A stretch of DNA of 64,000 nucleotides from Saccharopolyspora galaxeae (GTDB lineage Bacteria; Actinomycetota; Actinomycetes; Mycobacteriales; Pseudonocardiaceae). The stretch is taken from the NCBI RefSeq assembly GCF_016526145.1, contig NZ_JADDUE010000004.1, positions 434,001 through 498,000 of the forward strand. The letters run 5' to 3'. Positions 1,224 through 4,530 of the stretch are shown here, piece by piece. Position numbers and translations under genes: made by a program. The number at the start of each line of letters is the position of its first letter. The stretch's first letter is position 1. A model generated the notes under the pieces. It did not search any database, was not told where the DNA came from, and saw nothing but the letters and a program-made list of their open reading frames with translations.

Positions 1224-2492
1224 GTGCGCGCACCACGGTTGCTGGTCCTTGCCGTCGCCCTGCTGGCGCTCGTGCTCGCAGGGTGCGCACCCGCGCGCGC
1301 ACCGCGACCGGACGCGGGCCCGCCGCGGGTGGATCCCGCGTTCGTGCACGGCACCGACGGCGGATCGATCGACCGGCTCGCCGCGAGCGTGGTCACCGAC
1401 GTGCAGGCGTACTGGTCGGCGACCTTCCCCGAGCTGTTCGGCAAGCCCTGGCACGACCTCGACGGCGGCTTCTACTCGGCCGACACCTCGGCCGCGGACA
1501 GCCGCCCGCCGCCGTGCTCCGGCACGGTGCAGAGCTTGGAGGGCAACGCGTACTACTGCGGTTCGGTCGACGCCATCGCTTGGGACCGCGGCGCGCTGCT
1601 GCCGGTGCTGCGGGAGCACTACGGGGACGCGGCGGTCGCGGTCGTGCTCGCGCACGAGCTCGGGCACGCGGTGCAGCAGCGCGCGGGCATGGACGTCGGC
1701 AGCAGCCGTGATCCGATGCGCACCGAAGCCGGAGCCGACTGCTACGCGGGGGCGTTCATGCGCTCGGCCGCCGATGGGCACGCGCCGCATCTGCGGTTCA
1801 CCGATCAGCAGCGGGACCAGGCGTTGCACGCGCTGATCGTGTTCCGGGATCCGGTCGGTGCCGGTTCGGGGGATGCGCACGGCAGCTCGTTCGACCGGAT
1901 CACCGCTTTCCAGGACGGCTACCAGCGCGGTCCCGGCCAGTGCGGGCAGGTTCCCGCGGACAGCGACCGGCTGACCAACGGACGTGCCGACGACGGCAAC
2001 CAGCGGTTCGACGATGTTCTCGCCCGGCGCCCCGGCGCGGAGTTCTTCGACGAGCTGGTCGCGGAGCCGGGCCCGGCCGCCCCGCCGATCCGGCCCGCCG
2101 AGGGTTCGGGCTGCGCTGCCGCGCCGGTGAGCTACTGCGCGGGCGGGCCTGCTGTCGTGTTCGACCGCGCCGGACTCAGCGCGCTGCACGACGACATCGG
2201 GGATCAGGCGACCGCGACGCTGCTGGCTTCGCGGCAGGCGATCGCCGCGCTGGGCGCGCTCGGCCGGCCCACCACCGGGCCCGATGCCGGGCGCGCGGCC
2301 AGTTGCCTCACCGGCGCGTACACCGCTCGGACACCGGACCTGTCGGCGGGTGACCTCGACGAAGCCGTGGAGACGTTGCTGGTCTCCGACGCCGTGTCCC
2401 GCGACGCGCAGGGCGGCCAGGCGCTCACCGGCGCGGACCGGGTCGACGCCTTCCGCACCGGCCTCACCGGCGGCCCCTCCGCCTGCCGCTGA
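1224..2492 (+). CDS. lipoprotein, putative neutral zinc metallopeptidase
   Basis: This 422-residue protein begins with a lipoprotein signal peptide (hydrophobic stretch ending LALVLAGC), so it should be anchored outside the cell. Around residues 142-152 it has AHELGHAVQQ, the HExxH zinc site, followed by a possible third ligand region at EAGADCYAG, the pattern of YpfJ-like predicted neutral zinc metallopeptidases. Several cysteines suggest disulfides. The GTG at 1224 follows an AGCTGAGG Shine-Dalgarno-like stretch. The substrate is unknown. It is a single-gene unit divergent from glgP. Confidence 0.75.
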   Translation: MRAPRLLVLAVALLALVLAGCAPARAPRPDAGPPRVDPAFVHGTDGGSIDRLAASVVTDVQAYWSATFPELFGKPWHDLDGGFYSADTSAADSRPPPCSGTVQSLEGNAYYCGSVDAIAWDRGALLPVLREHYGDAAVAVVLAHELGHAVQQRAGMDVGSSRDPMRTEAGADCYAGAFMRSAADGHAPHLRFTDQQRDQALHALIVFRDPVGAGSGDAHGSSFDRITAFQDGYQRGPGQCGQVPADSDRLTNGRADDGNQRFDDVLARRPGAEFFDELVAEPGPAAPPIRPAEGSGCAAAPVSYCAGGPAVVFDRAGLSALHDDIGDQATATLLASRQAIAALGALGRPTTGPDAGRAASCLTGAYTARTPDLSAGDLDEAVETLLVSDAVSRDAQGGQALTGADRVDAFRTGLTGGPSACR

Positions 2493-2568
2493 TCCGCCTG
2501 ACCGCTGATCCGCTTGCCGCTCACTCGCCTGCCGCTGACCTGCTCACCGGTTTGCGAGCAGCTTTTCC

Positions 2569-2619
2569 GAGCGAACGGCCTGTTCGCCCAACCTATTCGG
2601 ACCAACGGTCCGTTCGCTC
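2569..2619 (+). repeat. 51-bp near-palindromic intergenic repeat, copy A
   Basis: It starts GAGCGAACGG and ends CCGTTCGCTC, a perfect 10-bp outer inverted repeat around a degenerate inner palindrome. It lies 77 bases after the peptidase stop codon. Three further copies of exactly 51 bp lie at 5498, 7764 and 22882. A more degenerate half-copy may start at 2689. Confidence 0.8.
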
Positions 2620-2760
2620 GAAGTCGATCGCGCGCACGCGGACCGCGCCGACACGCCGACGCACCACCCTGACCGGGCAGCTCGAACCGGGTGAACGATC
2701 TGCTCGCCCGACAAGACCGGACTCGGGGTGACCAGATGGCGGGACCGGCAACGGCGGATG

Positions 2761-2790
2761 TTGGTCCCGCCGAGGGCGTCGTGCCAGGAT
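2761..2790 (+). promoter_or_regulatory. candidate promoter for the cysteine dioxygenase leader transcript
   Basis: TTGGTC (2761-2766) and CAGGAT (2785-2790) are spaced 18 bp apart. The hexamer CAGGAT ends 7 bases before the GTG of the leader ORF at 2798, so the transcript could begin on that GTG (leaderless leader peptide). The -10 departs from TANNNT, so support is moderate. Confidence 0.35.
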
Positions 2791-2797
2791 CGCGGCC

Positions 2798-2869
2798 GTG
2801 CCGGATTCGTTCCTGACCCGCGACCGCGTGGTCGACCTGTTCCTGGTCGTCACGTCGGCCTGTCACTGA
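2798..2869 (+). CDS. putative cysteine-ending leader peptide (uORF)
   Basis: A 23-codon ORF starts with GTG, runs through LTRDRVVDLFLVVTSACH and stops at TGA 2867-2869. It resembles from memory the short actinomycete leader peptides with an LTRR..(V/I)DL....SA.C pattern, found upstream of sulfur-metabolism genes. A single Cys codon sits two codons before the stop. It lies 171 bases before cysteine dioxygenase and 7 bases after a -10-like hexamer. Ribosome stalling or release at the Cys codon could report cysteine supply. Function is inferred; no peptide evidence exists here. Confidence 0.55.
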   Translation: MPDSFLTRDRVVDLFLVVTSACH

Positions 2870-3005
2870 CGCGCCAGTCCCCGCGACCTACCGGGTCGAC
2901 GGCGCGGCACCGCGAACCTTCCGCCACGAGCCCGCCCGCGCACGCTCGCCGCCCAGCTCCACGAGCACCGGACCGAAGCAGCCGGGCGCGCCCGCGCACG
3001 TCGAT

Positions 3006-3036
3006 CCGTTCCGAGCACCTGCGAACGAACGGAACG
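3006..3036 (+). promoter_or_regulatory. possible SD-sequestering hairpin before cysteine dioxygenase
   Basis: CGTTCC (3007-3012) can pair with GGAACG (3031-3036), and CCGTTC (3006-3011) with GAACGG (3027-3032). The only Shine-Dalgarno-like sequence for the ATG at 3041 (GGAA) lies in the downstream arm. The stems are short (6 bp), so this is a suggestion only. Confidence 0.25.
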
Positions 3037-3040
3037 AAGC

Positions 3041-3631
3041 ATGTCCGCACCAACGCACATCTCCCAGTACACCCCGACCGAAGAGATCCCCGAACTCGGC
3101 GCGTACGAACTGCACCCGGGCATCGACTCGCCGCTGCTGCGCGATTCGATCCGGCCGGACCACGACCTGTGGACGCCGCGCGAGCTGCGCGACCTCACCC
3201 ACCTGGTGATCACCGAACTGACCGGCTCGCTGCTGGACATCGTCCGGATCGACGAGCGGGAGCGCTGGTGGGCGCGGCTCGGCCTGACCGCGGGCGTCGA
3301 GCTGTGGCTGCTGTCCTGGGCTCCCGGGCAGGGCACCGAACCGCACGACCACGGCGGCGCGTCCGGCTCGTTCGCGGTGCTGTTCGGCGAGGTCCGGGAG
3401 GACTACCGCTACCCGGCCGGGCCGGTGCGCACCAGGAGCCACGAGCTGGGCGACTCCATCGGCTTCGGCGCGGGCCGGGCTCACCAGGTGCGCAACACCA
3501 GCACGGTGAACTCGGCGAGCGTGCACGCCTACTCGCCGCCGCTGCTGTCGGTGCGGCACTACACCGACCTGGCCGATGTGCCCGACGAGACCCCGGCGCC
3601 CGCCGGGCCGATCCGGAGGGAGCTCGGATGA
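3041..3631 (+). CDS. cysteine dioxygenase
   Basis: This 196-residue protein is of the bacterial cysteine dioxygenase (cupin) type, oxidising L-cysteine with O2 to cysteine sulfinate. Iron ligands are visible in EPHDHGGASG (two His) and in the later VHAYSPPL segment (third His); GRAHQVRN lies between them. The ATG at 3041 has only a weak GGAACGAAGC Shine-Dalgarno that may be occluded. The downstream rhodanese gene overlaps its stop by 4 bases, so the two are co-translated. A cysteine-ending leader peptide precedes it, pointing to control by cysteine. Divergent or upstream sulfur genes are absent. Confidence 0.9.
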   Translation: MSAPTHISQYTPTEEIPELGAYELHPGIDSPLLRDSIRPDHDLWTPRELRDLTHLVITELTGSLLDIVRIDERERWWARLGLTAGVELWLLSWAPGQGTEPHDHGGASGSFAVLFGEVREDYRYPAGPVRTRSHELGDSIGFGAGRAHQVRNTSTVNSASVHAYSPPLLSVRHYTDLADVPDETPAPAGPIRRELG

Positions 3632-4062
3632 GCGAGGTACCCGTGCAACGCACCCCGGACCCCGGTCCGTACGGCATCGACCACCTGCTGACCGACGCGC
3701 GCAGCGAACTGGACCGCGTCGGCCCGCAGCAGGCCGCCGAGCTGCAACGGCGCGGCGCGCTGCTGATCGACATCCGGCCGCAGTCGAACCGGCTGGCCGA
3801 AGGCGAGATCCCGGGTGCGCTGACCGTCGAACGGATCGTGCTGGAGTGGCGGCTGGACCCCTCCAGCCCGCACCGGCTCGACGGGCTGCGCACCGACCAG
3901 CCGGTGGTCCTGGTGTGCAACGAGGGCTACGCCTCCAGCCTCGCCGCGGCGCAGGCCCGCGAGCTCGGGCTGGGCCGGGCCACCGACCTGGTCGGCGGTT
4001 TCCGCGCCTGGGCGGGCGCCGGGCTGCCCGTCGTCGAAGGCGGTAGCGCCCCGGTGGGCTGA
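3628..4062 (+). CDS. rhodanese-like domain protein
   Basis: This 144-residue single-domain rhodanese has the active-site loop VLVCNEGYASSLAA with the catalytic Cys, and the rhodanese motifs LIDIRPQSNR near the N-terminus and GGFRAWAGAGLPV at the end. Family members move sulfane sulfur through a Cys persulfide. The ATG at 3628 overlaps the cysteine dioxygenase TGA (ATGA) and follows GGAGGGAG, a strong coupled start. The pairing suggests handling of sulfur released during cysteine breakdown. An intrinsic terminator follows. Confidence 0.9.
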   Translation: MSEVPVQRTPDPGPYGIDHLLTDARSELDRVGPQQAAELQRRGALLIDIRPQSNRLAEGEIPGALTVERIVLEWRLDPSSPHRLDGLRTDQPVVLVCNEGYASSLAAAQARELGLGRATDLVGGFRAWAGAGLPVVEGGSAPVG

Positions 4063-4080
4063 CGTACGACCGCTAGATCG

Positions 4081-4118
4081 CAGGGCGCTCTCCGGGACGG
4101 GGAGCGCCCTGCTCGTTT
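4081..4118 (+). terminator. intrinsic terminator of the CDO-rhodanese operon
   Basis: CAGGGCGCTC (4081-4090) pairs with GAGCGCCCTG (4102-4111), a perfect 10-bp stem, followed by CTCGTTTTC. It lies 18 bases after the rhodanese stop. Confidence 0.85.
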
Positions 4119-4206
4119 TCCGGGCAGATATGGGGTTCGTCCGGAGGGAGCGATCCGCCGGTCCCGCGATGATCAGATCTACGCACATCCCTTCAGGAGG
4201 AACCGC

Positions 4207-4530
4207 ATGACCGCTTCGCCCCGCAAATCCCCCGTGACGATGTTCGCGGACCAGCGCACCGTCGTCACCGTCACCGGGAGCCTCGACGCCACGACCGCGC
4301 CTGACCTGGAACGCCTCGTCGCCGACAACCGCGCGCCGAACCAGGTGGTGGTGCTGGAGCTGTCGGGCATCGAGCAGCTCACCGCGGACGGAGTCGCCGC
4401 GCTCGTCCGGATCCGCGAACGGCTCGAAGCACCGTTGGACGAACCTCGGCTGGTGCTCAACGAGATCGGCACGGCCGCGCTGGCCGAGGCAGGCGAGGCC
4501 GATCGGTTCACGCACGTCCAACACACGTAG
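4207..4530 (+). CDS. STAS-domain protein, anti-sigma factor antagonist-like
   Basis: The 107-residue protein has the STAS fold pattern: VVTVTGSLDATTAPDLERLV, then VVVLELSGIEQLTADGVAALVRI. Classical antagonists (SpoIIAA/RsbV) carry a phosphorylatable Ser in a DSSG-like turn; here the turn reads TADG, so the usual phosphoserine is absent and regulation may be different or lost. AGGAGG at 4196-4201 sits 5 bases before the ATG. It is monocistronic by position, between a terminator and an ABC ATPase gene, and no anti-sigma partner is adjacent. Confidence 0.75.
   Translation: MTASPRKSPVTMFADQRTVVTVTGSLDATTAPDLERLVADNRAPNQVVVLELSGIEQLTADGVAALVRIRERLEAPLDEPRLVLNEIGTAALAEAGEADRFTHVQHT

Follow-up and report, generated by a model that had tools for sequence, protein, structure and literature searches.

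A short reading frame with a single cysteine codon lies ahead of a cysteine dioxygenase (CDO)-rhodanese operon in the window, the whole 64,000-nucleotide stretch analysed here (C29:434001-498000 of a 6.40 Mb genome), raising the question of whether this upstream frame (uORF) is a gene at all and, if so, what it might sense and how it might act on the operon behind it. The answer turns on the following features.

2785..2790, + strand: -10-like hexamer CAGGAT, exactly 7 nt before the uORF start, a leaderless architecture
2798..2869, + strand: leader peptide uORF, MPDSFLTRDRVVDLFLVVTSACH-stop, 23 codons from GTG 2798 to TGA 2867-2869
2834..2836, + strand: Asp codon of the VDL motif, the anchor (D), with the putative sensor Cys at D+9 codons
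2861..2863, + strand: Cys codon UGU, putative sensor, conserved in relatives; sole Cys codon of the uORF (penultimate position), next base C
2870..3040, + strand: leader RNA from uORF to CDO, C-rich and G-poor (C 0.45, G 0.30)
3007..3036, + strand: local hairpin, CGTTCCG (3007-3013) with CGGAACG (3030-3036), over the CDO Shine-Dalgarno (SD; GGAACG, 3031-3036), in the MFE fold
3041..3631, + strand: cysteine dioxygenase-family thiol dioxygenase, CDO1 (Pfam CDO_I, E 8.8e-14, over cut-off)
3628..4062, + strand: rhodanese (Pfam Rhodanese, E 5e-13), overlapping the CDO stop (ATGA)
4080..4112, + strand: intrinsic-terminator-like hairpin with tail TCGTTTTCCG

The frame with its hexamer spacing and near-terminal Cys codon, the two-gene operon and the terminator at its end had all been described in a first-pass annotation, and each is borne out. 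Because CAGGAT stands 7 nt ahead of GTG 2798, the uORF is probably leaderless, with transcription and translation both expected to begin at that codon; a sigma-70-type promoter scan of 2500-4300 gave no match, and an Rfam search of 2400-4300 returned none up to E 1. CDO1 carries both marks of a type I cysteine dioxygenase, the three-His iron site and the family profile, with H102, H104, H148 and Y164 invariant in 17 aligned homologues and 8qfl, 'Cysteine dioxygenase', as its nearest solved chain (E 1.5e-11). Its membership in the dioxygenase family is clear, with cysteine as a putative substrate. A rhodanese homologue lies 3' of CDO1 in 29 of 30 loci.

A short ORF containing DL..C precedes CDO1 at 26 of 30 loci (relatives and own genome), and a D-[LF]-x7-C frame is present at 27; the motif is absent from L028, L031 and L032, and in L025 it is present but the frame stays open for 177 nt after the D. 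A second set, the best 80 of 532 named loci, which shares some genomes with the first, has the leader in 60 loci, lacks it in 19 and includes one incomplete locus; the closest relatives beyond the leader-bearing group, namely S. shandongensis (L217) and the majority of Nocardia loci, are without the motif in this set. The first-pass annotation had proposed aligning the peptide and its flanks among relatives, and across seven close loci the peptide is indeed the better kept, with mean pairwise identity of 0.89 in the uORF against 0.59 upstream and 0.45-0.62 downstream. Among uORF codons 2-23 in these close loci, eight are invariant, six show synonymous changes only and eight change amino acid, a split in which selection at the peptide level is visible, though not strict at each position. 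The Asp is invariant in alignment A1, as it is in 126 of 126 rows of the wider collection, there by construction of the motif.

As a hold-out test for the window uORF, we searched 1201 six-frame window segments with a profile of 19 CDO leaders, all from outside the close group; the window uORF scored E 9.6e-7 and the next segment 0.31, in a test that is not fully blind since the 19 leaders were chosen by a loose DL..C pattern. A profile of 17 own-genome paralogs did not pick the window uORF out (no significant match), and neither NCBIfam nor Pfam gives a match to the window peptide at E<=1. The hexamer recurs as well: [CT]ANNNT stands 6-7 nt before an in-frame ATG or GTG in 55 of the 60 named leaders (best 80 of 532), where shuffles expect 5.5. 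By these comparisons of sequence, the window uORF is a real conserved mini-gene.

It is also one of many. The CDO-leader profile and NCBIfam NF042934 searches combined yield 17 other leaders in the same genome, counted after dropping L042 (E 0.38, start codon not found) and matches at E>1. For 13 of these the first downstream gene is sulfur-linked by best match, seven of them over curated cut-offs (SsuE, TauE, an OAH/OAS sulfhydrylase, SfnG, two SsuA-family proteins and a second CDO, CDO2) and six below cut-off (DmoA-like, taurine dioxygenase-like, SsuE-like and SsuC-like proteins, a sulfurtransferase behind a DUF4395 gene and a sulfite/nitrite reductase-family protein). The other four precede an MFS transporter, an LLM oxidoreductase (MsnO8), an SDF symporter and a protein matchless in Pfam and NCBIfam; this last, behind leader L090, probably has an over-extended frame start and is a candidate sulfur gene. 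The leader of CDO2 (L093, G000:C29:353194-353229, - strand) reads MTVSWGHIDLRRVASALCPLR; relatives repeatedly carry a nearly identical RGHIDLRRVASALCP.R peptide, and in them 14 of 20 CDO2 upstream regions hold a leader of the same type.

NF042934 gives six own-genome matches over its cut-off, with the window peptide absent from the list at E<=10. Across 60 genomes sampled from the class, 45 carry matches at E<=1e-4, and none of 14 control genomes does; relaxing the threshold to the loose E<=10 applied to the own genome brings matches in 10 of the 14 controls, none over cut-off. The resulting class-wide set comprises 89 matches, the last ten listed having been left out; 82 fit [VI]D[LF] plus a Cys nine codons on by pattern, and six more, read separately, all have UGU. 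The D-to-Cys spacing is nine codons in all 17 other own leaders and in 27 CDO1 orthologues, a distance that was part of the search pattern and that every leader examined fits except L183 (G114), where a stop, apparently TGA, replaces the conserved Cys codon.

Which cysteine codon stands at this position is nearly fixed. TGT occupies it in 17 of the 18 leaders of the own genome, for which the binomial P is about 1.5e-20 at the window background (7 TGT of 121), and likewise in 88 of 89 class-wide matches (the remaining one being L183), all 26 other CDO1 orthologues that have the motif, 14 of 14 CDO2 leaders (from 20 upstream regions) and 60 of 60 named leaders (best 80 of 532, in genomes partly shared with the CDO1 loci above); the sequences are related, so these counts are not independent events. 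The one own-genome TGC belongs to L085, the leader ahead of the sulfite/nitrite reductase-family gene. Elsewhere the preference is the reverse: TGC outnumbers TGT 114 to 7 in 44 window ORFs, 274 to 48 in genes of the class-wide loci, 65 to 18 at other Cys codons within the class-wide leader peptides themselves and 28 to 5 at those within the named leaders (best 80 of 532). Other conserved residues vary synonymously, Ser between AGC and TCN, Val among GTC, GTG, GTT and GTA, and Asp between GAC and GAT. The following base is constrained too, with G after TGT in 2 of 126 leaders and 0 of 60 named leaders (best 80 of 532), against 6532 of 14795 codons (44 percent) in genes. Since the searches were run at the protein level, they carry no bias toward TGT. 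Ribosome-mediated attenuators in general have a regulatory codon under selection, and the near-fixation of UGU (own leaders, 17 of 18; class-wide, 88 of 89) shows such selection on the Cys codon here. UGU is read by wobble, and the base 3' of a codon affects decoding strength. What appears new here, at the level of sequence, is the fixed UGU at the conserved Cys position with G rarely next; neither such a rule nor a CDO leader is reported in the accessible text of the literature covered, which includes PMC8079986, PMC4633059, PMC9094748, PMC1262725, PMC13236596, PMC9031893, PMC9386245, PMC8632094 and PMC13091356 and lies largely outside subscription papers.

We therefore read the leaderless peptide as a putative sensor of charged tRNA-Cys, through the single UGU decoded nine codons past the Asp of VDL. 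When Cys-tRNA is scarce the ribosome would pause at UGU, and when cysteine is plentiful it would run to the stop two codons on; a pause would raise output from the CDO-rhodanese operon, translation being the most likely level, with uORF Leu/Val codons that pair with the CDO SD being held apart by paused (or queued) ribosomes. We consider this whole account, from leaderless uORF to SD release and operon induction, likely. It builds on what comparison of sequences brought out: a conserved frame, the D-to-Cys spacing, UGU rather than UGC, 17 further leaders and covariation between uORF and SD, described below. Judged from sequence, its well-supported part is the sensor, namely the Cys codon of a leaderless uORF that is translated; the stalling itself we infer. 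A bolder version, which we put forward tentatively, holds that single-Cys actinomycete leaders carry a dedicated, invariant UGU sensor, read by wobble in the weakest context for a Cys codon, with any base but G next, and set nine codons past VDL so that peptide and slow codon act jointly, and that this one sensor may serve a whole sulfur-scavenging set in which CDO-rhodanese, induced by cysteine shortage, would release sulfur from thiols rather than dispose of cysteine.

A related possibility, on which we place a little less weight than on this bolder version, is that the peptide is an arrest peptide and not a pure hungry-codon attenuator, in which VDL..V.S, lying at a constant depth within the tunnel, would help arrest the ribosome at UGU. 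The constancy of the D-to-Cys spacing and the retention of motif residues (Ser, Val, Asp) through synonymous codons would suit it; however, that spacing belonged to the search pattern, and needs at the RNA level, namely SD pairing of the Leu codons, could partly explain the conservation.

How would a pause reach the operon? The favoured step, SD release, involves two further features of the uORF.

2838..2843, + strand: candidate anti-SD TGTTCC (Leu-Phe-Leu codons), pairing with GGAACG of the CDO SD; weak, 6 bp with one G-U
2806..2813, + strand: alternative anti-SD TTCGTTCC near the uORF start, 8 bp with GGAACGAA in the centroid fold; not conserved in the genus

In relatives, covariation links the SD to the segment equivalent to 2838..2843 (D+3..D+18). 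Among 23 CDO1 orthologues, permutation gives p 0.006 for D+3..D+15 and 0.014 for D+0..D+18, with three other segments at 0.058 to 0.90; in 49 named pairs (best 80 of 532), D+3..D+18 reaches p 0.002 and D+9..D+27 p 0.013, while six of nine segments are not significant. In the named set (best 80 of 532), GAGGAG accompanies Leu CTC in 9 of 14 cases and CAGGAG accompanies Leu CTG in all 6 (Fisher p 0.014). The longest uORF-SD helices, in L019 and L248, reach 11 bp. For the own 18 leaders, SD covariation is absent at D+3..D+15 (p 0.84) and present at D+27..D+45 (p 0.004, eight segments), and in 25 class leaders the SD-pairing segment falls at or after the Cys codon (p 0.002). The pairing there often involves a TCCTGAC at the uORF stop, as in L128, L169 and L137 among the class-wide leaders, where it complements the next gene's SD, GTCAGGAG. 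With a larger set of 63 class leaders, six of the eight segments reach significance, which suggests effects of lineage or composition and weakens the test, whose permutations ignore relatedness. On balance, the covariation between Leu codons and SD favours SD sequestration. The hairpin over the SD that the first-pass annotation had pointed out is present, but alone it is not the switch, given the support in relatives for pairing with the Leu codons.

Modelled folding gives a mixed picture for SD release. When ViennaRNA folding was masked for 60 leaders, a ribosome on UGU raised SD accessibility from 0.167 to 0.231 (p 0.013), an effect not above that of a downstream control block (p 0.38) and below that of the control block D-27..D+6 (p 0.005). 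In the window's own leader, accessibility went from 0.04 to 0.00 with one ribosome and to 0.25 with a queued ribosome, so that release by a single stalled ribosome is not supported by the model here; nor does this leader's fold show telling extra stability against shuffles (z -1.42). Downstream of the uORF, GGGTCGAC (2893-2900) stays the same across the five same-genus leaders while the sequence around it varies, and it is able to base-pair with the codons of VDL. That pairing was considered as a candidate and rejected, as it shows no covariation in three leader sets (z -0.6 to -0.9).

For the output step, Rho-dependent attenuation stays a serious alternative, since the window leader is unusually C-rich and G-poor, even if we think it rather unlikely. 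Ribosome-free C-rich RNA after the uORF would load Rho, which would end transcription, and a ribosome paused at UGU, by the stop, would shield the loading site. Among 27 upstream gaps in the window, where C-minus-G averages -0.02 (sd 0.06), the RNA after the uORF stands highest at +0.14; of 52 named loci (best 80 of 532) that have 60 nt or more of such RNA, 51 contain more C than G in it; we found neither an intrinsic terminator nor a T tract between uORF and CDO; and Rho has been proposed for mycobacterial cys leaders in the accessible text of Seliverstov 2005 (PMC1262725). Yet C richness by itself is no proof of a rut site, and Rho leaves the uORF-SD covariation unexplained.

In which direction would the switch work? 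The first-pass annotation had argued for a cysteine-responsive attenuator from the premise that the operon destroys cysteine. The attenuator remains the best reading of a conserved Cys-ending leader before CDO-rhodanese; the premise is not supported in that form, since the other own-genome leaders mostly precede sulfur acquisition genes, which points to induction at cysteine shortage, the opposite of disposal. A classical disposal logic, in which the leader switches the operon on at cysteine excess, is accordingly improbable: CDO by its name (Pfam CDO_I) consumes cysteine, but the same leader type stands here ahead of acquisition genes (SsuA, SsuE, SfnG, OAH/OAS sulfhydrylase), and published mycobacterial relatives, known through papers that cite the original work (PMC9031893, PMC13091356), respond to low cysteine. 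From this gene set and these relatives we infer a switch that is on at low cysteine, and the window leader is probably one of a set that activate sulfur genes under cysteine shortage. A cysteine dioxygenase on at low cysteine would be odd if cysteine were its substrate; with that substrate putative, low-cysteine induction fits sulfur scavenging, in which the dioxygenase may take part, better than it fits the removal of surplus cysteine. The remaining explanation, a chance ORF (which the first-pass annotation had kept as an alternative) or a translated but non-regulatory small peptide, has the lack of an NCBIfam match in its favour and is very improbable, the conservation (including the hold-out profile match, with its incomplete blinding), the leaderless promoter spacing and the UGU bias all being contrary.

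If the low-cysteine account is right, one kind of mini-gene would coordinate about 18 operons of a Saccharopolyspora-like genome via a single codon, without a protein regulator, and a 'cysteine dioxygenase' could belong to sulfur scavenging. Near-invariant UGU in genomes that prefer UGC offers a sharp rule for finding such leaders and raises a basic question, why one synonymous codon should be kept at one position.

The first-pass annotation had likened the peptide to an actinomycete leader-peptide pattern, and the kind exists: NCBIfam NF042934 (cis_reg_atten, 'putative leader peptide', actinomycetes), NF042933 (leader_Ms5788A) and NF042936 (leader_Ms4527A) describe peptides that, like the CDO leaders, are short with VDL..V.S..C near the end. 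The window peptide itself reaches none of these models and fails the curated cut-off of NF042934, 27 bits (absent at E<=1). Of eight CDO leaders scanned, one matches NF042933 at 5.8e-5 and NF042934 at 1.5e-4 and another NF042936 at 0.072, none reaching a curated cut-off. The window peptide does fit [VI]D[LF] with a Cys nine codons later near the stop, which is our reading of NF042934 members and not the curators' definition; unlike that family, it has R-D-R-V before VDL and Leu at D+3, where the family mostly has Arg.

Among systems described in the literature, as far as the accessible texts go, uORFC-8-2 before cysS in Rhodobacterales (PMC8632094) is likewise a uORF with Cys codons linked to attenuation, but its Cys codons are tandem, UGC dominates and an intrinsic terminator is present. 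Leader peptides before cys operons of Mycobacterium and P. acnes and before B. longum cbs (Seliverstov 2005, PMC1262725) share with the window Cys codons near the stop and the lack of a terminator, Rho being suggested there, and differ in their runs of Cys codons and biosynthetic genes. The mycobacterial polycysteine leaderless attenuators (Canestrari 2020, as relayed by PMC9031893, PMC13091356, PMC13236596 and PMC9094748) are leaderless uORFs before sulfur or cysteine genes, for which attenuation at the level of translation has been proposed. The window uORF resembles them in being leaderless by sequence, as its relatives appear to be, and in its Cys codon near the end; where they carry a run of Cys codons, it has one, a fixed UGU, placed before a dioxygenase-rhodanese operon.
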